Shown here piece after piece: positions 18,102 to 59,606 of a stretch of 64,000 bases of DNA. The stretch comes from Patellaria atrata CBS 101060. Lineage: Eukaryota > Ascomycota > Dothideomycetes > Patellariales > Patellariaceae. The notes beneath the pieces are model-generated. The model was not told the origin of the DNA. It did no database searches and was given only the letters and a program-made list of their open reading frames with translations. The DNA lies in the NCBI GenBank assembly GCA_010093705.1, contig MU006092.1, positions 1,384,500 through 1,448,499 on the forward strand, read 5' to 3'. The translations under genes and the position numbers were made by a program. Numbering within the stretch: position 1 is the stretch's first letter; the number at the start of each line of letters is the position of its first letter.

Positions 18102-21100
18102 ATGCGTACACGACGCTCTTTAGTCACGGCGGAAAAGCCAAACATCATAACATCGCCACGGAAAACCAGAGGTACTGTAGATTTCAGGAAACCAGAAGTT
18201 CCCCGTAAATTGACTCGATCATCGTCAAATGTTTCAAACGGAAATACTATTTTTGTTGGTGGAATCGATGAAGCTAAACCGATCCGGGCCATTTGCAAGA
18301 AAGGCCGTTTCCTAATCATTGCTGGAATTCCATCTGACTTTTTGAGTCTTTTGGAACAACCTGACTCAGATGTTGACGAAGACGAACACTCTTCTAAAAC
18401 TGCGTCACATGCTGAAGTTGCAGATGATGCCCAAGAAGACGAGGATGATTTGGAAGATGAACCGGATGATGAGCCGGAAGAGGAACCAAGTCCAGGCTTC
18501 AATGAAAAACCAAGAAAGAGAAAATACAAACGACGACGTAGGACAGTGCCGAAGATCTTGTCACCAGTCCGAAAATCCACTCGCCAGAAACGTGTCAAAG
18601 CACTTTCCCCGGAAGCAGACATGGAAGACCAAATCGCAGTTGCTGACGCTTCATCAGTAAAGGAACAGGGTGCGTCAAATATTACTGAAGAACAATTGCA
18701 ATTGTCAGCTGCAGCTAGTGCACATGAGGAGCATGAAGAGCTTGAAGACCTAGAGGAAGAAGATGAGCAACCGGGAGATGAAACCAACGAACCCGAAGAT
18801 GAGAATATTGAATCAGCTTCAAAAACACTCCAAATCCCGGTTCCGAAAATCTCCCTCTCAAAACAAGCAAGTGACGCGAGCAATGTCTCCAAATTATCAA
18901 GGTCTGCCACCGGGGATGAACAAGCGGGCGAAGATGGTGAACGGGAACCCACACCCGAACTCATAGACGATACAGTACGGGAGTCAGATCTACCTGCCCC
19001 ATTTCGATCTCGCTCTCCCACACCACCCGAATCATCATTTCCAGACCAGGCCGCATACTTAGTCAAAACTCGCTTCAAACCCATCACGGACCCCCAACTG
19101 TTCATCTCGGCTCTATCTCAACATGACCCCTCAAAACGTTCAACGGCGAGCTTATACGCTCTCGCGCTCAATACGCAACGTGCTCTCGTAGCCTGGCAAG
19201 ACGAGTATCTCAAACTAGACGCACGGACTGCTCCCCATGCTCACCCAGCAAAGAAACCCGCAAAAGGCGGTCGCGAAATTGTTGAGAAGGATATCTGGGA
19301 AGGCCTAAAGGAAGCGGAGTTATACAACTACTCCTATGATCATCGCAAGACCGCGTGCGAACAAAACCCCTTCGCCCAACGGATCGGTCGTAATGGAGAT
19401 GCAGGCCGCGAACTCAGAGGCCGTGGAAGACGCAAGGCGAAAGATGTCGATGAAACGGAAGATGATGGTGCTAACACAGCTGCTGTCACGGATGTCGCGG
19501 CCGAAGAAACTGGTCCTGGTAGACGACCTAGACGTGAGGTCAAGAAATACGACGGTGTCGCGCCACCGGCAACACCCGAACCGATCAAAGTCCACGGCAA
19601 TACCGGTAGAAAGAGGCGATTAGACGTCAGCGCAACTCCCGAGCAAGACGGTCGCAAACGTGGTAAACACAACGCTTTCCTACCCGCTCGCGTTCGTGAA
19701 ATGCGCGCCGAGAGTGCAGTGAGCGAGGACACGACCAACAACGAAGAAGAACAGAAACCTGATGGTTATGAAACCGAGCGCGACAGCCGCGGTCGACGGA
19801 TTGGGAAGCGGAGAGGGAGACCGAAGGGGTATCGGAGGTCAAGTACTGGGCAAACGCATGGGTATACACCGCAGCAACAGCAGGAGGACCAGCAGGATAC
19901 TGAGGCAATGGAGGCGGATCCCAATCCCGACCCGAGTCCGGGAAGCAGTAGGAGGAATAGTATTTCGCAACCTCCTACGCCTGTCAATGCGACCCCAACG
20001 ATACCACCAACGATGCCGCCACCGCCTCCTCCACGTGATACAACCGAACTACCCCAACCGATTCCAAACGAGGCTCAATTCGGAGAAGGCCCCATAACAC
20101 CCGTCGGAACAAGTTCCGGTCCCACAGGCGCGTCAACTAACTTCAACCTCACATTCCAACCCTCGTCACGTAAACCCCGTGTTAAATCCGAGAAACGGAG
20201 TAAGAGCATGACGAAGTGGTGGGCAGAGCGGAAAGAGAAGGCTGCATTAGCTCGTGCGAATGGAGAGGTGGCGGAGCCGGCTCAACCTCGTCGTCGTCGA
20301 AGTAATCTTTCTGGAGGCGCCGGGAGCGGAGGAAATGAGAGGGGAGGGGGGGAGAGAGGGTTCCTGCAGATACAACCCGCGGTTGGTGGGCAGGGAAATG
20401 TGTTACCGCCAGGTCAAGGACAACAGGTCATATTCCATCAGCACGGACAGCGGGAAGTGAGGGAACAGAATCCGTTTGCGCAACATGCACCGCCTCAACA
20501 AGCTCCTCCACAGCAGGTACAACATCAGACGCCACCGGTAGCGATAGCGAGAACGGGCTTCGACACAATGCAATTCCCCGAACAGAAACCACCGCATCAA
20601 TACATCTCGACCTTCCGCTCCGTCGAACCGACCCTCAACTCCTTCCGTGTCGAACCCGTCCAACCCACAACCCAGACACAACCCGAATTCCCGCCTCCAC
20701 CGCCCTTAGCAATCCAAACNNNNNNNNNNNNNNNNNNNNNNNNNNNNNNNNNNNNNNNNNNNNNNNNNNNNNNNNNNNNNNNNNNNNNNNNNNNNNNNNN
20801 NNNNNNNNNNNNNNNNNNNCGCCCTTAGCAATCCAAACCATACCTCCACCTCCACCTCCCCAACAGAGGGAAAGAAGCCACAGTCTCCAAGCGCAGACGC
20901 AACCGCAGGACCCAAACCAAACCTATCAACCCCAGGGCATGCATCTTCCACCGCTCCACCCCCGCCCTGCAACCCATCATCAACCCCACCCCCACGCCCG
21001 CTCTCACAGCCACTCCCACCCGTATTCCCACGACCCCCCGCCCTCGCCCTCAACGGCTCATCTCGAACCCACGCGCTTCGCGCCTACAGCGTCAGCCGAT

Positions 21101-41528: not shown

Positions 41529-42260
41529 AGCAGACAGAGGAGAGGCAGGATCATTGCTAGGACCCCTGTAACAGTATTGTACATATAGAGATGCGGTTCT
41601 AGATCTATCATACAAATTTTGCCATACAGATTTGGCTCATTCGATCAATACGTTCACCAGTCGTCCTTTCCTGCAAGAACTGACCTCCTATACAACTATA
41701 TAACACCGACTGAGTAAGCTTAGTAAGCAGCCCCTTTTCCGAACTTTTATACCTGTGCCCCCTGTGACAAAGGGATATGATATGACCTGGTCATGCCCCC
41801 GATCCATCGCTCTATGGGTCATTCCACCAATCGAACTCCTCTCTTGGGGTATACAATCTCCTTACTTCCTGTTTCTTTCTCTTCAAAAATTGGTCGACGA
41901 GGTTATTTGGAAGCTGGAGTTCACTCGAGGTTCATTGCTGGCGGATAAGGAACATTCAACGATACGAACTATTTGCGTGACATAGATAATAATCATTATT
42001 GTGGGAGTGATTTTGGCCTACAGATATCTCATCGTGCTGTGGAGAGACTAAATGAAGCAGTGTTGAGACAATTGAAGGGTTACATGATGTTCAGCACTGG
42101 TTCACGGTGATGGTGTTTAACAGCAAGCGATCCACTACCGTGTTTTCTTATTGTTCAAAGTGACGTCTTTGGGGTATGTCTTTTGATTGTCCGCGTGAAG
42201 AATTATGCAGACGGTAGGAACAAATGATCTCATGGTCACCGGCTTTAGCAATGTCTCTCT
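41529..42260. other. Intergenic region left of the module array
   Basis: AT-rich DNA with no supported gene. Confidence 0.5.
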
Positions 42261-42815
42261 CTTGTTTTGGGTATAAAGCTCTCTTCTCCTCTTCTACTTT
42301 CTTCTTATTTTAGAACCAGTCGTAATTTTAGGGAATTTCAGCTATAAAATTCAACATTTTGGAGAAACAGAGGCGAAGCACTTATACTATTTGAGCCGTT
42401 GTGGAAGAGAAATGTCAATACCATGGTTTTGAAACTGGTCGGAACTCGAACGAATCTCGTCGGATTGTTCTCATCGGTTGGGGGAAGTGGTAATGATATG
42501 CAGCTCCCAAACATACTGATGAAATTCAGCAACCATAGTCGATTGTTACTATGGAACTCCCCATAATTTACACTTGATAGCTGCCTATGACTTTCTCGCA
42601 TTATTCCACTGTCTGACTTTTTACTTGACCAGTTCTTAGCATCTATATTTGGGTATATAAACCTTTACGGCTCTTCTCTTTCTTTCATTCTTTAGTTCTG
42701 CAACAACTTCAAGACTCAGGCGGAAATGGAACTTCGAATGGAAATTGAGAGGAAGAGGACGGGCTCTGGATTTCTTCAGCGCGGCGTTGGAAGGACCAAC
42801 AATCATCACCTATTG

Positions 42816-42988
42816 TGTCATGACTCAACCTCAGACGAAAACTGAAAGGTATATTGCTAAATGTACACGAAGCTTAAACTTAAGGAGAGATAGTATTGAG
42901 ACAGCATATGCTGTTCTACTAAAGTACAGTATGACTAAGCCGCTGGATCATCCAAGGCACTTATACCTATCGAGTCTAATCCGCGACA
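42816..42988 (+). mobile_element. MITE copy A (173 bp)
   Basis: It begins TGTCATGACTCAACC and ends CCGCGACA. The interior contains the perfect palindrome ACAGCATATGCTGT and matches copies B and C along its length. Flanking target duplication is no longer clear. No coding capacity, so it depends on an unseen transposase. Confidence 0.85.
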
Positions 42989-43410
42989 TATTGGGGGTTC
43001 GGACTGGAACTTTGAGTTGAATGAACCTCTTATTCGGCTCACCTTTGTTTGATAAGCAGTGATTATGCGGTGTATCTCCACACAAAACTGACGATATTCA
43101 GCATAAACAATGTATTACCATTATATCACTCTCCCTATTTGCCCATGACGTTAGTCTTAAGTTTGTCGTTAGATTGTGTCGTAGCTGACTCTCAACATGC
43201 CGATTCTCGGACTCAAGGGTCTCCTTTAGATATATAATCTCTCCTCTTCCTCTCTATCTTTCCTACTTTCTTAGTTCTACAATAATTTCGAGAGAAGGGT
43301 ATCTTAGGATAGTATCAAAGATTGGGTGGAGGAATCTCTATAGTAGAATGTATTGGGCTCGTTGAGCTTAATGGCGAAAAGGATTGTGGTGTGTGAGGAG
43401 AGTCAACAAC

Positions 43411-43583
43411 TGTCACGGGTTAGACCCGAAAGGTATAAGTGCCTTGGATGATCCAGCGGCTTAGTCATACTGTACCTTAGCAGAACAGCATATGCTGTCT
43501 CAACACTTTCTTTCCTTAAGTTTAAGCTTCATGTACATGTAGCAATATACCTTGCAGCTTCCATCTGAGGTTGAGCCTTGACA
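43411..43583 (-). mobile_element. MITE copy B (173 bp, inverted)
   Basis: The same element in opposite orientation, TGTCACGGGTTAGACC to GCCTTGACA. It has the same length as copy A and carries the ACAGCATATGCTGT palindrome. Flanking 5-mers ACAAC and ATAAC differ by one base and may be the target duplication. Confidence 0.88.
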
Positions 43584-46500
43584 ATAACAAGATATCTGGA
43601 ACTTATTTGGAAGTTGGGGCCGGAAGTGGGAGATGAAAGATCAAAGAGTCTTGCTGGGTAGTTCTAACCTGCTTGAGACGATATGATATTGATGTTGTGC
43701 AGCTACAGGCTACAGCGGTGATGTTCTGCAGGAATGGCTTGATCTCCAATCAACCATGATGCCATAAACACTACATCAAAAATGATGGGAGTTATTCCTA
43801 ACTTACAGTCAACCCCTGACGTAGAAATTATGATCTAATCACACGATACATCAATCAGCCTGCGGAATTTTCAACATTTGGTTAATGACTCCCAGTGTGG
43901 GTATATAGTTGTCTCCCTTCCCCTGTTTTTCCATTCTCTTGGAACCCACAATCAGATCTCAGCTTAACCTGAACATGCTGAGCTGAGCATAGAGCAGCGA
44001 ATAGACTTATTTGGGGGAACCTAACAAAATCTCCAGGAGATTGTCTCGGAACGACCAGCTCTCAATTAGATATGCCTCGAGAAGAACAGCCCATTATTTC
44101 TTTTGCAAGCGGGCTGGTTGCGTAGCTAGTGGTGACGGATAGAGAATAATGAACCGCAGTCTCAATCAGCCTTAAAGAGGAATAGTAACAATAATGTTTC
44201 ACTAACATCTCATCTAATATGACTTAAGAGAAAGGTAAGATTATAAGAACCCCTGTCTCAGACGAACACTTGGCATACGCCTCACTGGCATCATCGTCTC
44301 ATTCTTATGTATGCCAGGACAGCTGACCCCTTACTTTACAAGTTTTTGAAGGATGACTCCCCTTCTTGATATTTCAACCTCTTTTCCTTTTCTCTTTTAA
44401 ATCTATATTCATATTCTGAGACTAGGCTGGCTGAATTCCGCGATGGAACCGCATTCTTGGAAGAAGAGAACAAGTCGAATACTTACTGTATCCGACAGAT
44501 GAGTTCCCGATTGGGTATTGAGAGGAGAAAACTGATATTGTTTTCTCCTAACCGGCAGTTGGAAGCTTAGCATGGTTATTGTGTAGTTGACGCTGGTGGA
44601 TGGAGGTGACGGTGACGAGCAGCCTCAGTTAATCTCGAAGGAGAACGGCAGGAGTAGTCCTGTTGTGATTTCGTCAAATATCACGTCAAAGTATTTATCG
44701 TCTTAGTGTCCCTGGTGACATACCCTACTGCCAAAGATAATACTTGCGACCTGCTAACCTCTGAACTTATGCTGTTTAGGCCTCTGCACAGCTCTTGTAG
44801 GTATACAAGCCACTAAACATCTTCTCTCTTACTTTTATTTCTTTCACTTTCCAAGCGTATGGAATGGAGTCCTTCGCATGGCGATATTTGGTGTGATCGA
44901 GAGAGAACGTCTCATCAATGAAACGCAAAGAAAAGAAATTGGGAGTGCGCCTGAAGAGAAATCTACTCTCAATTTTGGCTGGATTCTAAGCACGTGGGCT
45001 TATTATCTCGGTACACACTTAGTAACGGGGAGAAGCGGGGAGAACCAGTAATGATATCCAAGCTTACCATTTGCTAATGAAATCCAGCAGGAAGAGATAC
45101 TCTCACCATAGACTATTGAAGCTCAAGGGAGCGTTAATGTATTGTCTTGGTTCCAAAGCATGACATACTGTACACAATGTACTCAGATGTTTCATGACTT
45201 GTGCGTATGTTTGTAGCTCCTAATTCTCACCTACTGGTTTTCGGCAACTCACCTCTTTCTGTAGGTATATAAACATTCTCCTTTCTCTACGTCTTCTTCC
45301 TTAGGTTCTACAATCTCATGAGAGAATGTGCGACCACACCGTCATTTGGGAGAGATATAGACAGGTGAACGATATTGGTTATGTTTGCTCCTCGGGCATG
45401 ATGGAAACAACATCCTCTCCCCTTTTCAGACCGAAAATGCTCCAGGGTCAGGATTTGGCTACGGTAATAATGAGGAATACAACGGCGTGGTGATAATCCT
45501 CATAATCGAAGCCCCATTGCTCTTTACTGAGAGTTATAGCAAAGCCGAAAAGTTATAACTTCTCTCCTCATCGATGCTGGGATACATAATACTTACCACT
45601 CACTTACGCGTATAGCAGATGACCTTCTATCTTACAACCTCGGTTCTTCCTTGTCTCCTTTATGTATATAAGGCTACAAATTTACTTCACCTTTCCACTT
45701 TAAAGAATTCCTCAACATCTCCGGGAGAGCTTAAGTTTGGAATCGGGATCAAAACTATCATAGAGAGGGAAGTAGGATTTACCGCTCAGTCATTTAGCAT
45801 TCCGCACTAAGTGGTTCCTTGATGCTCTTAAGGAGACATGAGTCAAACCTAGATGTTGATTCCTTTCAGACTAACGTACCATTGCTGGATTCCGTGTCCA
45901 AGAGCGCACACTTATACATAAAAAGGATTATAATGATTGATCATGTTGTGCGAGTTTTATGGTAAAGAAAAGAACCAGCAGTAAGATCTTCAGCACAGTC
46001 AGGGGTTCCAATAGAGGAGGTAATGACATCCACATTTTCCAAATAACGGTTCCTGCTAATGAAAGGATGGAGAAGGAAAGTTGCGCAGTAACGCGCTGAT
46101 TGCGCTTGGGTGGGAGAGGAATTGTTGCAATAAACCGTTCATTGCTTTTGGGCGGGCTTCAGATGAACCTAACTGTTCCATGGTCAGTCGAAGAGAGTAA
46201 GGGGATCTTAAAGCATATAAAGGGGTAATGATGTCGAGTTTCAGTTTAGAAGGATGAAGATGGTAATCATCATCCACTCGAGATTCGAGGATATAATACG
46301 GAAAAATGAAAAAGATAAGTGGCGTGGGAATTATAGAACAATCTCCTAAGAGTATAGTTTTATGAAGTATGTCTATGTGTGTGGAGTAAGATTCAATGGA
46401 GCTCGTAGTTTCATCTGCTTTCTCATGCACAATAACATGTGTAGTTCTAGCAATCACACCCTTAATTTGACAAGTCTACCTCTTGACACCTCCCCTCTCG

Positions 46501-47951
46501 AATTTATATAACCTTTCTTCCTCTACCATTCTTCACTCTTTCACTATAATCAACGAGATCTTTTCCGTGGAATATATCCTTTATTGAATAATTGGGTCGG
46601 TAGACAGGAAGGCCGGTACTACTTACCTGCTGAATTCAACTATCAAAACATTCTTTTCCTCGGACCGTTGTGAATGAAAGATGAAACATAGAAACGTTAG
46701 GTCAGTGGTACCGGTGATAATGGTCAATTTTGATTGAGAAAGTTGAAGTTTGGTAGTAAGAATGTCTCTGCCGGGCCATTATCAGTTTAAGAACTAGAGA
46801 TAAGTTACAATCTGGATCAAACATGTGTCTAAGATATGATACTCCGTAGTTCGTATAGGTTGCAGTTTTTCTCTTGACATCTCGCGTGGGCTAGAAGTAT
46901 GACGTAAAGTTGATAGGTATCGAGGGATCACGCTTCGGGACTCCGGTGATCGGTCATCCTCCCTCATTTTCAAAAAAATTTATCCCATTTTTGCCCACTT
47001 GTCTCCACCCTATCCACATATTATACAGATTGGATACTCTCCTGGAGGTGGGATAGGACTGTCATTGCCTGGAAGAGTAAAGGAAGCAACATGGGCCCTG
47101 AATATTGACTTCTAGGGAGGGTTGGCCGCTTCAAAGTCCTGACCCCAATCATTTCTATCTTTGCCGCAGGAGCAGGATCTGGCATTGGGTGGGGCCTGCC
47201 ACTAAATGATAAAATCAATCATAGACTGATAAGGGATATGATGGCGTATAGCTCCATTTGGTGATGCTATAATTCAGCAAAAACATATTCAGGCCGAAGA
47301 GGAATCAAAGACGAGTTCAGAGCCACAGTTTAACCACACATTGGATATGATTATTAAAGCATATCACGCTCCCCTGCTTCTAGTTCCGAGCTATAAGCAT
47401 GACTCAGAATGTTCTATTGTCATAGTACATTTATACTGCAATACTGATCATCTGCACGTTCACCCCTGATTATATAAGACTCACCTTTCTCTTCTGATTT
47501 GATTTCTTATCTTTAACAACGACCTTATTCAAGAAACACCAGTGAGAAAACGTAAGGAAGCACTGGCGTGTTTCTAGGGTCGAGAAGTGTCTGCAGCTCC
47601 CATAGTGAACTCTTTTCATTGCGTGGCCATAAGTCATGATAAGTAGAATTAATTCACAAGCTCCAAGGTAGGTAATCGTTTATCACGACACAAGTCATCA
47701 TCATGCAGTGCCCTTAAAGATCCTTACGTTCAGATGGTAATATCAATCACTATTCTTTCCCCAAACCGATTCACTTCCTGAACCCCGTAATTCTGGATGT
47801 TCTGGAACGCTAAGTAGGCCCCTTATCAAGATACTAACACAATTCTATACCTGGATGTGAGGTTTTTTCCAACTAAAAATGCCACAACAATTTTCTCTGG
47901 TAGGCTTTTGCATTCACCTCCCTCCCTTGGCGCGGGCCGCAAGAGCACAGC

Positions 47952-48188
47952 TGTCAAGGCTCAACCTCAGATGGAAGCTGAAAGGTATATTGCTACATAT
48001 ACATGAAGCTTAAACTTGAGGAAAGAAAGTAAAAGAGAGTGTCAGAACAGCGTGAGCTGTTCTATTAAAGTACAACATGACTAATAAATGAAAGTACCAG
48101 AACAGCGTGAGCTGTTCTATTAAAGTATATCATGGCTAAGGCGCTGGATAATTCAAGGCACTTATACCTATGGGTCTAGCCCGTGACA
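47952..48188 (+). mobile_element. MITE copy C (237 bp) with internal duplication
   Basis: Ends are TGTCAAGGCTCAACC and CCCGTGACA, flanked by a perfect 5-bp direct repeat ACAGC (47947-47951 and 48189-48193). The extra 64 bp relative to A and B come from a tandem duplication of the central part, so the hairpin AGAACAGC-GTGA-GCTGTTCT occurs twice. The 5-bp target duplication with TGTCA-type ends suggests a DNA transposon origin; the superfamily is uncertain. Confidence 0.9.
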
Positions 48189-48259
48189 ACAGCAACTAAA
48201 TAGTCCATCACCATGAAACAATATTCAATCCTGACCCTGGAGCTTGTTGAAAAGTGGAG

Positions 48260-50800
48260 AATCAAAGGGGAGAGGAGGTATTTATCCCTAGAGCCTGCGA
48301 TACTGCTACCCTCCTTGTACGTTCAATCAGAGCGTATGGTAAATCCATCATGGGTGAGGCTATCACGGGGTCTTACGGTCCTGGCCTTCAGCAAACAGTC
48401 AGCCAGATAAGTTTCTATCTTTCGTAAGTTATATATCTACTAATAGTCTTTCGCCTGTGCGATAGCAGTGAATCTCACGCTGTTCCTGTGTTGTTGATCA
48501 TCCCCTCTGAATGATAACGTCATGCACCACTCTCAGGAGAGCAGTTTTTTCCACCTCGAAGAAGAAAGATAATGGGATTTGAGCATTCCAGGAGAATGGT
48601 GCTCCCTTCAAGGGAACCAAGAAGCGAACAATGCATTACATCTAGTTTGGGCACCCGCCCAAATATCGTTTACAGCCCAGAATGTTTCATCCAGATGATC
48701 CTAAGGAAAAGTAAAGATAAAGGAGAGAGCAAAGAAGCAAAGATAAATAGACCTATATAATTCTGTATTACCAAAGTCACAAGACCAAATGATCGGAAGT
48801 GTCATTTTTCTCCATCATGGGTGCTCAGGGGTCGTAAGGGTTTATCATAAGCTTATCATCTCGTGAACGTACAAACCAGTAGCACAAACACCACACTGGT
48901 GAGACCCAGTGCACAACCAGTACACGAATTTTATTTCCAATATTCACTGCTTATCACCCGTTCTCCGAGGTGGTTGTTACACAACTCATCATACCTCTCT
49001 AAACCCGCTGGAATTTGACTCATCTAGAGTAGTTTGCCTTTAGTGTAAGAGAACAATTGGCGTTCAGACTGATCGAAAAGTGCAGGGCCTGCTCTCTAAT
49101 AGGAATAATACAGGAACACTGGTGAAGTTATTCTTCTATTCATTCCCAAGCATGCCCCGGAAGATTCGCGGAGAGGAGAGAAACAGTAAAGAACAGGGAA
49201 GATATAGCTCTAGACGCAGCGATATCGCTATATTACTTTTCCGTATGATTGAATGACATAGAGTATTCTTCTTACCATCCTACATACTCAGGCGCTGATA
49301 TAAACCTTACGTTTTTTGGACGTACGGAACTTCAGAACTCATCCCCAAATCCCCATTGGTAGACTCCGTCCTTCTACAAATTTTTCATTATTATTTTATA
49401 ATACTGCTGGTCGTCATTCCGCCATAAAGACGAGAACAGTCATCGTGTTCTTTGGAGTCTCCCGTGAACACCAGTTTGGCTTGAACCCTACAGCCAGAGA
49501 GAGAGCCGCATCCAAAAATTGTCAAAATGCTCTGCGGATTTTATTCCTTCTATTACTAGGGAATGAAAAACGCAATCACCAACAGCCGCACGACTGGATC
49601 ATGTTTTGACTTAGCAGCACAGCAAATAAAGCCTCGCGCTGATCGAAGTATCAGATTTTTGATTATGGTGCTGGAGAGGTCTGGAGAAGAAACAAATGGA
49701 GAACGAAAGATAATAAATAGACGCCGACCATGCTACGACTCATGTTTTGTGACCAGCTGATGGACATGTGGAGGACTCATCACGTCGCCCTATCGTCATA
49801 AGAACTCAGGGGCTATCATGGGATATTTTAATCTCACGTTGAGAGTACAGAAGCAACTAAACTACACAGATATTACTTACTCTTCTGTCATTCCCAAGAC
49901 CTCCACTGAAGAGGGAAGAGATGCTGAAAGTCTTCACTCCCCAATGATGGCAATCATCATCCCAGATAGCAAACCTCCTATTCTCCCTGGTCTCTCCAGA
50001 CCAATTTTTTCCACTTCGTCAACTGAACAAGGGCAACCCCAGGAAAATGCATATCTATCCATAGTGGCGCCCAAAAACACTGCAATAAATGAATTTGATT
50101 CGGGCCGAAGATAGCATAGTGGTTGTTTTCGAGTAACATATGTTGCGGTACCACCTAACCGACGATCCACCCAATTGAATATTGATCTCGTATATGTCCG
50201 TAATCTGTATTTCAAAACCTGTCAGATATTTAGTAGAAAGAAACACAAGGGAAAGGAAGAGAGGCGGAAAATATAGACTCAGAACGAGCGATATCGCAGA
50301 AGTCCCTTTGTAGAGTGTTCAGCTGCCAGTACCACAGATACGTCTGAAATTGACACACAGTTATACGTATTCAGGGGCTATCATGAAGCTTACTCATGTT
50401 ATGGAGAAGGCTCTACTACAAACCTAAACGTTTGAAGAGGGAAGTGTCCTTCTATGATAGTGACGAATACCACCTTTGTGTGCGGTTGACGATGACGACT
50501 ATCACTCCTAGACGATGTCCTTCATCGCCTTATAAGCTCTTTTCCCTCAAATCATAATTAAGGCTTTTATTTCAGCTAGGGTAAGAAGCAATCCTAGAAA
50601 ATGATGATCGACGTTGGCTCCAAAGACACCACGATATCGTGTCGAACACTCCACCGACGGCCCCCTGAAAATGAGAGTCTTTGAGAGTCGCTATCCAGCT
50701 CCAAATAGAGGCTCTGGATCTTGTTTCAGAGAGAAGAAACGGGGAAGAAGAGGAGATATATAGACGTCGAGTGAGCGGAATCGCTGTAATTCTTGGCTCA
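48260..50800 (-). repeat. Tandem array of modules, inverted half
   Basis: On the plus strand a purine tract (GAGAAGAAAC...GGAGAGG) followed by a TATA-like word and AGAC/CGAGCGATATCGC recurs. TATA words lie at 48279, 48742, 49201, 49712, 50271 and 50756, spaced 463, 459, 511, 559 and 485 bp. Read on the minus strand this is TATA followed by a pyrimidine tract, the same order as in the forward half. The phrase CAGGGGCTATCATG is repeated at about 49808 and 50372. No gene is supported. Confidence 0.5.
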
Positions 50801-51147
50801 GGCCATGCAACTCTTCTCCCTGAAGAGGAAGTTAATCATCAGTTCAGAGTTCCAGCATTGAGACACATGTTCATCTTGTGCCCAAGTGAGATCCGCAGGT
50901 ATTCCATTGTAGTCAATTTTAGAACTTGTACCGTCTTTTTTGTTTCTCGTTATATCAGACCATGTGCATGCCCTGCGATTCGGTCTTTCCAAAAGGGAAA
51001 CGTGTAAGGCGGGAGGAAGGGTGAAACGCAGCGGTAGTATATTAGTGAGAACAGGGCGGAGGAAGTGAAGATTAGATATCCCGCGGGAGAAACAGTCAAA
51101 AGATACTGCTGTATATATTGAATCTCAGCAGAAAAAATTTCATTTCT

Positions 51148-51248
51148 GGTGGGATGGCCGAGTAGCTAAGATTTCCTTTGTCATAATTTCTTTAGTCTAT
51201 TTCCTATAGTCATATTTCTAGATTCTAAGTTCGAGCCCCGTCTCCACC
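51148..51248 (+). pseudogene. Decayed class II tRNA-like sequence (Leu/Ser type)
   Basis: It begins GGTGGGATGGCCGAGTAGC (A-box like) and ends AGTTCGAGCCCCGTCTCCACC (B-box like). The acceptor ends pair in six of seven positions. The D stem and T stem have lost pairing at G-to-A and C-to-T type sites, and the region between is AT-rich with no clear anticodon arm. It could be a tRNA pseudogene or the head of a tRNA-derived SINE; a T-rich run follows at 51310. Confidence 0.55.
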
Positions 51249-51746
51249 AGAATATAAAGTTAAATGCGTTTGCCGGGTTAACTTTCCCTCTTCGGAGATT
51301 TTCTTTTGTATTTTTTTTTCTCCTTTTTATCTTCTTTTATTCACTTTAAGGGACAAATATATTTCCTTTTAGTTTCTTTTTGTCTTCAGCATTAACATTG
51401 CTTGAAAGCGCATGGTCATCCGGTACATCAAAGTCTCGTGAGAAATCCAGCGAAAAAAAGCACACGGTTCTTACAGAGAGCAAAGCGGTGATAAAATTTC
51501 CTCATATAGTGGTGACAGCAACGGGATGGGTAGGAGGGTAAGAATATAATGATTCCATATGAATATAACCGTCAATTAATCTGTAAATTATCAAGTACGT
51601 ATCAGCCAGACAAACATCTCTTAATAACAAAAATTTCACAAAAGGCCGCTCACAAAGCCACCAAACCCAAACGCCTAAGGTCCCGATATCCTAGTTCAGA
51701 AACTCCAGATCCAAACCATACCCATGCAACATAAACTTGAACCCGC

Positions 51747-58684: not shown

Positions 58685-59606
58685 ATTTAGCGTAGGAAAA
58701 ACTTTTGGGTCCCCTTGGCGTTTCTGACTTCTGCCACACCACACGATTTCAAAACAGAGTCGTATATTAAGTAGTAAGATAATAGTTAATATAGTAGTTA
58801 GATATATCCTATATAATATTCTTAACTATACGATATTAGATCTGACCTTAATTAAGCGTTCTATACGACTTATATACGGCTTATATACGGTATCAGATAC
58901 CCGTACGGCATTAGATACGGCCTCAACTGAGCGTTCCGTACGGCTCAGATACGTGCTCAGATACGTGCTCAGATACGTGCTCAGATACGTGCTCAGATAC
59001 GTGCTCAGATACGTGCTCAGATACGTGCTCAGATACGTGCTCAGATACGTTCTCAGATACGGCTCGGATTCGTGCTCAGATTCGGCTTCAGATATGGCTC
59101 AAATTCGTGCTCAGATTCAGTTCAGATACGGCCTTAGTACGGCCCAGATTTATACTCAGATTAGCACGAATTTGAGCACAAATCTGATCTCGTACGGAGC
59201 ACGTACTTAAGACGAATCTGATGCCGTCCCTGAAGCCGTATCTGAAGCCGCATCTGAAGCCGTATCTGAGCACGTATCTGAGAGCACGAATTTGAGCACT
59301 TATCTAAGCCGTATCTGAACCCGAATCTGAGCCGTACGGAACGCTTGGTTAAGGCCGTATCTAATGCCGTACGGATCGCTCAGTTAAGGCAGTATCTGAT
59401 ACCGCGTATAAACCGTATATAAGTCGTATAGAACGCTTAGTTAAGGTCAAATCTAATACTGTATAGTCAAAAATATTATATAGAATATATTAAACTACTA
59501 TATTAGCTATTATCTTACTACTTAACATACAACTCTTTTTTAAATCATATGGTGTGGTAGAAGATAGAAACGGTAAGGGGACCTAAAAGTTTTTTCTATG
59601 CTAAAT
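58685..59606. mobile_element. Palindromic long-inverted-repeat (foldback) element
   Basis: The two halves are inverted copies over about 400 bp each. The outer ends read ATTTAGCGTAGG and, reverse-complemented, ATTTAGCATAGA; then both arms share AAAACTTTT-GGTCCCCTT, CTTCT-CCACACCA, TTAAGTAGTAAGATAATAG and GCGTTCTATACGACTTATAT. The inner part of each arm is made of degenerate CGTATCTGAGCA-like words. Arms differ mostly by C/T and G/A changes. There is no coding capacity. It resembles a non-autonomous foldback or long-TIR element; I could not define a target-site duplication. Confidence 0.85.
58943..59062 (+). repeat. 12-bp tandem repeat (GCTCAGATACGT)n
   Basis: Nine perfect copies (58943-59050) plus one degenerate copy, inside the left arm of the palindromic element. 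The right arm holds only scattered degenerate copies. Confidence 0.95.

Follow-up and report, generated by a model that had tools for sequence, protein, structure and literature searches.

Facing rows of promoter-like modules with unlike bodies in an intergenic stretch of Patellaria atrata

A 64,000-nucleotide stretch of the wood-dwelling fungus Patellaria atrata CBS 101060 (the window; contig MU006092.1, C4:1384500-1448499 in contig coordinates) contains an array of 17 promoter-like modules at 41.79-50.85 kb, of which 11 point rightward and 6 leftward. The core-promoter parts of these modules resemble one another, whereas the bodies that follow them do not, and two further arrays of the same kind lie on C4. 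Our preferred reading, to which we assign a probability of about 0.42, is that the array consists of old, tandem-duplicated RNA polymerase II (Pol II) promoter batteries that make short non-coding RNAs, with selection acting on initiation itself. The initial annotation of this DNA had listed six leftward modules and ten or more that point rightward; 6 and 11, respectively, were found. Among the matches listed in the open-access literature, none describes promoter arrays of this form.

A typical unit is ordered as follows. An upstream element lies ~130-250 bp before a TATA word, which is followed by 25-40 pyrimidines, a start region (for example, TTAGTTCTACAA), and a body of ~200 bp that runs to the upstream element of the next unit. 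The two half-arrays converge, facing each other. Their positions and representative parts, in window coordinates, are as follows.

41790..47949, + strand: rightward half-array, 11 promoter modules
41850, 42270, 42652, 43229, 43900, 44368, 44801, 45264, 45663, 46504, 47469, + strand: TATA positions of the rightward modules
48177..50850, - strand: leftward half-array, 6 promoter modules
50762, 50275, 49718, 49208, 48755, 48285, - strand: TATA positions of the leftward modules
42082..42096, + strand: example of the TGAYGAWATTCAGCA-like upstream element; module 42270 has its TATA 188 bp further on
45264..45330, + strand: typical core, GGTATATAA followed by a CT-rich tract and a TTAGGTTCTACAA start region
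46214..46220, + strand: possible decayed module in a double-length interval, a degenerate TATA without a CT tract, picked by eye and unscored
46978..47015, + strand: possible decayed module in the second double-length interval, picked by eye and unscored

The TGAYGAWATTCAGCA-like element emerged from a motif search of the 260 bp 5' of TATA in ten rightward modules. Its other clearest copies are at 42517, 43089, and 45075, and it is weaker in the remaining rightward modules. A conserved element was first taken as a downstream, C/D-like feature; that assignment was dropped because the first module tested also has the element, which belongs to the upstream part of the module that follows. In the leftward series, a CATGATAGCCCCTGAGTA-like block lies ~100-120 bp upstream of TATA and is clear in three of six modules, and a palindromic GCGATATCGC-like block lies ~20 bp upstream in four of six. 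The combined GCGATATCGC-TATA pattern, with up to 2 mismatches, has four matches in the genome, three of which are leftward modules of this array, as compared to one match for the control.

Three copies of a miniature inverted-repeat transposable element (MITE) interrupt the array.

42816..42990, no strand assigned: MITE copy inserted within the array
43409..43585, no strand assigned: MITE copy, inverted relative to that at 42816..42990
47950..48176, no strand assigned: MITE copy at the convergence point of the two half-arrays

Measured with repeats cut out, leftward spacing is 453-557 bp (coefficient of variation 0.07) and eight of the ten rightward intervals measure 382-494 bp, so that 13 of all 15 intervals fall within 382-557 bp. 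The remaining two rightward intervals, of 841 and 965 bp, may contain decayed modules; a position at 47021 was not kept in the module set. Excision regularizes both MITE-bearing intervals, which shrink from 577 to 402 bp and from 671 to 494 bp. These values agree with the initial annotation, which had proposed a period of about 400-500 bp that becomes regular once MITEs are subtracted, and they support its suggestion that the array predates the insertions.

The density of modules was compared with a background of 200 kb of the 28.3 Mb genome, made up of 20 stretches taken from contigs C1-C5, among them the two flanks of the window. A generic rule was used that requires a TATA word and then at least 80% pyrimidine across 30 bases, with a word list that was widened after the array had been seen. 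This rule finds 14 matches at 41.8-51.0 kb, as compared to 10 in the 200 kb background; the window outside the array has another 9, and background outside long open reading frames (ORFs) gives 12 matches in 88.8 kb. The direction of the matches is fully sorted, with 9/9 on the + strand in the left part and 5/5 on the - strand in the right part. With a strict TATAWA word and pyrimidine thresholds of 75, 80, and 85%, the 9.2 kb array yields 9, 9, and 8 matches, the 200 kb background 7, 5, and 0, and the window's remaining 54.8 kb 1, 0, and 0. Leave-one-out profile hidden Markov models (HMMs), for which the alignment was built with the left-out module still in, were scored against ~255 kb of background. 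All six leftward modules score 16.9-55.9 bits, as compared to 6.3 or less for the best background match, and 9 of the 11 rightward modules outrank all background. A series-profile search also recovered module 41850, which lies to the left of where the array was earlier thought to start. Beyond its own build set, the top match of each series' profile is a module of the other series, albeit at a weak E of ~0.4.

The genome was scanned for GGTATATAA followed by 24 pyrimidines with up to 3 mismatches, using the reversed pattern as a control. The scan affords 90 matches versus 33 for the control, and a second scan affords at least 111 versus at least 41. The matches cluster at C4:1298-1306 kb (six, all +), in the present array (five, all +), and at C4:1530-1534 kb (four, all -), with looser groups on C17 and C6. 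Two further arrays were delineated from these data, with module lists that are partly hand-picked.

C4:1297000-1306999, mainly + strand: array L030, 9 rightward matches and 1 leftward match by the generic rule, 11 modules in the working set
C4:1528500-1536499, mainly - strand: array L031, 10 leftward matches and 1 rightward match by the generic rule, 9 modules in the working set

In the working sets, intervals are 538-730 bp in L030, with two of 1420 and 1540 bp, and 357-786 bp in L031. Stop-to-stop frames stay at or below 130 aa in L030 and at or below 116 aa across the L031 modules, past the last of which longer frames (up to 186 aa) start. Sampled flanks contain frames of up to 466 aa (L034) and 201 aa (L035) and no modules by the rule applied to them. 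The initial annotation had named equal density of such words in other deserts as a result that would speak against the array. The 200 kb background contradicts such equality, yet two further deserts on C4 do hold arrays, and there may be more elsewhere in the genome. Across ~240 kb of C4, rightward series lie to the left of ~1,432 kb and leftward series to the right; with so few series, this arrangement can be due to chance. A region on C17 (600.5-615 kb; L036, L032) contains ~6 TATA/CT-type promoters spaced 0.8-5 kb apart, all but one match co-directional, with ORFs between them that include a bicarbonate-transporter-like gene, named by eye. It could be a looser array and was left out of the count, as was the group on C6 (L033), which has few modules.

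Likeness between modules was examined by local alignment scores relative to dinucleotide shuffles, expressed as z, for 37 modules in four half-arrays (11 and 6 here, 11 in L030, and 9 in L031). Within half-arrays, cores give z of 1.82-3.24, whereas bodies give -0.16 to 0.13. The core values are partly built in, since TATA/CT words and profile hits guided the choice of modules; upstream and body values are free of this selection. Upstream segments give 0.57, 1.31, 0.09 (L030), and 0.49. For adjacent modules, z is 2.73 for the core, 1.09 for the upstream segment, and 0.24 for the body; across different half-arrays, upstream segments give only -0.14 to 0.51. Upstream segments are therefore more alike between neighbors than across half-arrays, as tandem duplication predicts. 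Motif discovery in the 17 modules of this array, with each z taken from six shuffles, is consistent with this contrast: at word lengths of 10 and 16, z is 20 and 39 for promoters and 1.9 and 5.7 for upstream segments, as compared to 0.2 for bodies. The segments of the array thus exceed shuffled sequence in likeness, the comparison by which the initial annotation had proposed to judge it. An excess of AGGGG at the core (15/37 versus 4.5 expected) was given no weight because counting on either strand lets the CT tract contribute.

The absence of any recognizable gene or RNA downstream, together with at least two additional rows, suggests that initiation is what matters. We infer that complete Pol II promoters, comprising an upstream element, TATA, pyrimidine tract, and start region, would have been duplicated as units of ~380-560 bp, giving two inward-pointing series. 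Each promoter would start a short, unspliced, non-coding RNA, the sequence of which would be unconstrained and free to drift. Since only the promoter parts are kept, initiation would be the function. Each start would open chromatin over a few hundred bases downstream, so that under certain conditions a chain of them would keep the entire 9 kb accessible. The open stretch might serve as a recombination hotspot or boundary, or in regulator binding.

Several observations weigh against this reading. The promoters are predicted from sequence, and the half-arrays aim at each other rather than at a target gene. Rightward modules 46504 and 47469 fail the leave-one-out profile, the core likeness of the L030 and L031 modules is in part a product of TATA/CT-word and profile selection, and the upstream parts of L030 are not alike. 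Some signal is also present in the bodies. Single-series motif searches give z of 3.0 and 4.1, some 6-mers such as CCAGCA and GATGAT are enriched, and a ~17-nt match links the body of 45264 to the start region of 48285 (score 42, as compared to at most 33 in shuffles). GGTGATA occurs in 7/37 body windows versus 1.4 expected, probably because the windows extend into the upstream element of the next unit. In favor of the reading, besides module density, the leave-one-out scores, the contrast between promoters and bodies, the likeness of neighboring upstream segments, and the two further arrays, is the purine richness of the bodies on the strand predicted to be sense (mean 0.544, n = 36, p ~1e-6); the figure stands without a genome control, and purine bias is common in transcribed strands. 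Also in its favor, the core of the cAMP response element (CRE), TGACGT, occurs upstream in 9/37 modules (5/17 here) versus 2.7 expected and in 2/37 bodies, but its nominal P of 0.001 is post hoc and comes from one of 24 tests (8 motifs in 3 zones). Against the reading, the mlon-box shows no enrichment at starts (1/37 versus 0.7 expected).

The simplest alternative, that TATA/CT words cluster by chance in AT-rich desert DNA, draws on the shortness of these words and on the first picking of modules by eye; the density tests, leave-one-out profiles, strand order, and two further arrays leave it very little room. It is also improbable that the array is the relic of a tandem gene family that lost its coding parts, although a regular period, a tandem origin, and deserts between genes would be expected of one. 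The promoters of such a relic should decay at the same rate as the bodies, and little or no coding similarity remains between bodies (tblastx-like mean 29.3, versus 27.7 for shuffles with a standard deviation of 3.6 and 28.5 for antisense). No parent gene was found elsewhere in the genome for 43.59-47.95 and 48.18-51.14 kb, the only other matches being a 67-bp stretch and a repeat, both outside the modules. The signature of repeat-induced point mutation (RIP) is absent, with a composite index, from TpA/ApT and (CpA+TpG)/(ApC+GpT), of -0.39 versus -0.30 in the background. The initial annotation's suggestion of a relic after RIP-like decay is thus poorly supported, since alike promoters with random bodies are the opposite of even decay. 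Its satellite-like boundary is not borne out, because whole units do not repeat and likeness is confined to the promoter parts. A nursery in which lineage-specific genes for very short peptides arise would be compatible with the longest ORF of the array (86 aa) and with promoters of the same type near ORFs on C17, the link to those ORFs being putative. However, we regard such a nursery as very unlikely. First-ATG ORFs average 18.1 aa versus 17.6 in shuffles, and longest ORFs 33.0 versus 34.9. The coding score of bodies, trained on the window's own genes so that its gene control is in-sample, equals that of antisense. Protein look-ups returned no homologues for the longest ORF of all modules or for that of this array, and ten ORFs gave no Pfam matches above the cut-off. 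Small peptide genes were rejected on the basis of these ORF lengths, the coding score, Pfam, and the two look-ups. The claim that the modules lead to no ORF of size therefore holds, as the longest stop-to-stop frame in the array is 139 aa and Pfam gave no match.

The bodies could instead encode functional non-coding RNAs in a tandem family, the members of which evolve too fast, or differ too much by design, as guide RNAs do, for comparison. Each short unit has its own promoter and a purine-rich sense strand, guide RNAs would have differing bodies, and two small nucleolar RNA (snoRNA) families match 50484-50596, though far below the cut-off (E of 0.5 and 1.3). Nevertheless, this alternative is unlikely, given that the pooled bodies contain no common motif (z 0.2). 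C-to-D box pairs 40-140 nt apart occur in 0/36 bodies in sense and 3/36 in antisense, versus 0.9 expected; C boxes alone occur in 6/36 (3.6 expected). As to antisense matches to rRNA, another mark of box C/D snoRNA genes, an LSU primer pattern had no match in this assembly. There is no fold excess in 18 bodies (mean z -0.08, lowest -1.12), nor were H/ACA double hairpins found. Rfam yields no match at the gathering cut-off here and none up to E 1 in L030 and L031, and the candidacy of a structured RNA, snoRNA, or Rfam member was rejected as negative at these cut-offs. Intron-like matches number zero in sense and two in antisense, versus 1.7 expected. Among the three readings offered by the initial annotation, short non-coding transcription units fit best, but not in the sense of related RNAs: apart from weak signals, the bodies have neither sequence nor fold nor C-D boxes in common. 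Alternatively, the elements might form a platform that binds transcription factors, acting as a decoy or raising local concentration, with transcription incidental. The palindromic block of the leftward modules, the likeness of upstream blocks within three of four half-arrays, and the CRE excess would fit such a platform, and a Fungal_trans domain encoded next door at 53.4-54.3 kb could belong to the bound factor. Against this, the core promoter rather than the upstream element is best conserved, and the palindrome-TATA pattern has just one more genome match; we think a platform improbable.

Returning to promoter batteries that act through initiation, the array has the core architecture of the strong TATA/CT promoters that drive highly expressed genes in fungi, for which one promoter is expected per gene. 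On C17 and C6, similar-looking promoters are found near ORFs, whereas the array lines up many of them with no genes. In its working, though without a claim of membership, the array would resemble the metabolic-stress-induced long non-coding RNA (mlonRNA) cascade of Schizosaccharomyces pombe fbp1. Judged by its sequence anatomy, the array would share with it a series of co-directional non-coding starts a few hundred bases apart, a link to CRE-type sites, tentative in the array, and RNA bodies whose sequence appears immaterial. However, the fbp1 cascade comprises three starts that lead to one target gene, whereas the array has 6-11 per series, facing series, no downstream target, and TATA/CT cores without an mlon-box excess. 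According to two reports (PMC6342983, PMC7935937), starts of long non-coding RNAs (lncRNAs) in fission yeast with an Atf1-bound CRE ~200 bp upstream open chromatin within ~290 bp and also stimulate meiotic recombination. By the same principle, promoters placed every 380-560 bp would keep several kilobases open. The modules likewise resemble the cis-acting lncRNAs found between fungal genes, such as carP, prt, and ICR1, which are independent, ORF-less Pol II units that often act through transcription rather than their product (PMC12566771). Unlike the array, those lncRNAs adjoin their target gene, and the passages considered here mention tandem lncRNA-gene pairs and the fbp1 cascade and no larger arrays (PMC12566771). 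Independent snoRNA genes of Neurospora, as described in PMC2780460, are also compact, each with a putative Pol II promoter of its own, and differ in their bodies; the array differs from them in lacking C-D box pairs, a fold signal, and an Rfam match at the cut-off.

If the promoters are kept while the bodies are random, the array would provide unusually clean natural evidence for transcription, rather than the RNA, as the selected function. A broader proposition, which we offer as speculative and unlikely at present, is that some fungi carry dedicated, kilobase-long promoter batteries that are tandem-expanded and selected, with initiation as the sole product that matters. The arrangement of series on C4 could mean that the arrays organize one chromosome domain, such as a region of meiotic recombination or pairing. 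Because the arrays are small, intergenic, and present in several copies, the idea is testable.

On the left, the array is bordered by an ORF with its end near 41.26 kb. On the right, minus-strand ORFs from 51.75 kb onward have their ends facing the array; the Fungal_trans (fungal transcription factor) domain is on the minus strand, and the ORFs at 51.75-53.04 kb would be part of the same gene. The 67-bp stretch at 50826-50892, beside the first leftward module, is 88% identical to part of a C7 ORF (L023, ...EVNHRFRVPALRDTLILC...) and is probably a gene fragment. The repeat at 51068-51425 is SINE-like (short interspersed nuclear element) by look. It holds a tRNA-like stretch (GGCCGAGT...GTTCGAGCCCC) and has a copy on C18 (L024) with 77% likeness; ARAGORN calls no tRNA in the window, this stretch included.

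The MITE family of the array is also present in L030 (5631-5911), L031 (2610-2791), and L033 (2302-2452), with ~73-94% likeness over the aligned pieces. An interspersed repeat of ~290 bp lies at 4522-4816 in L031 and 3209-3468 in L030 and has at least 40-50 matches on many contigs. The peptide-like matches between loci LLDGGA.GVL and IFSAPADPVYL fall within this repeat and were discarded. Elsewhere in the window, unread bases (X in translation) occur at ~20720-20828, within a long ORF at 18.1-20.8 kb, and a minisatellite occupies 58728-59210, one frame of which reads RYVLRYVLRYVL.

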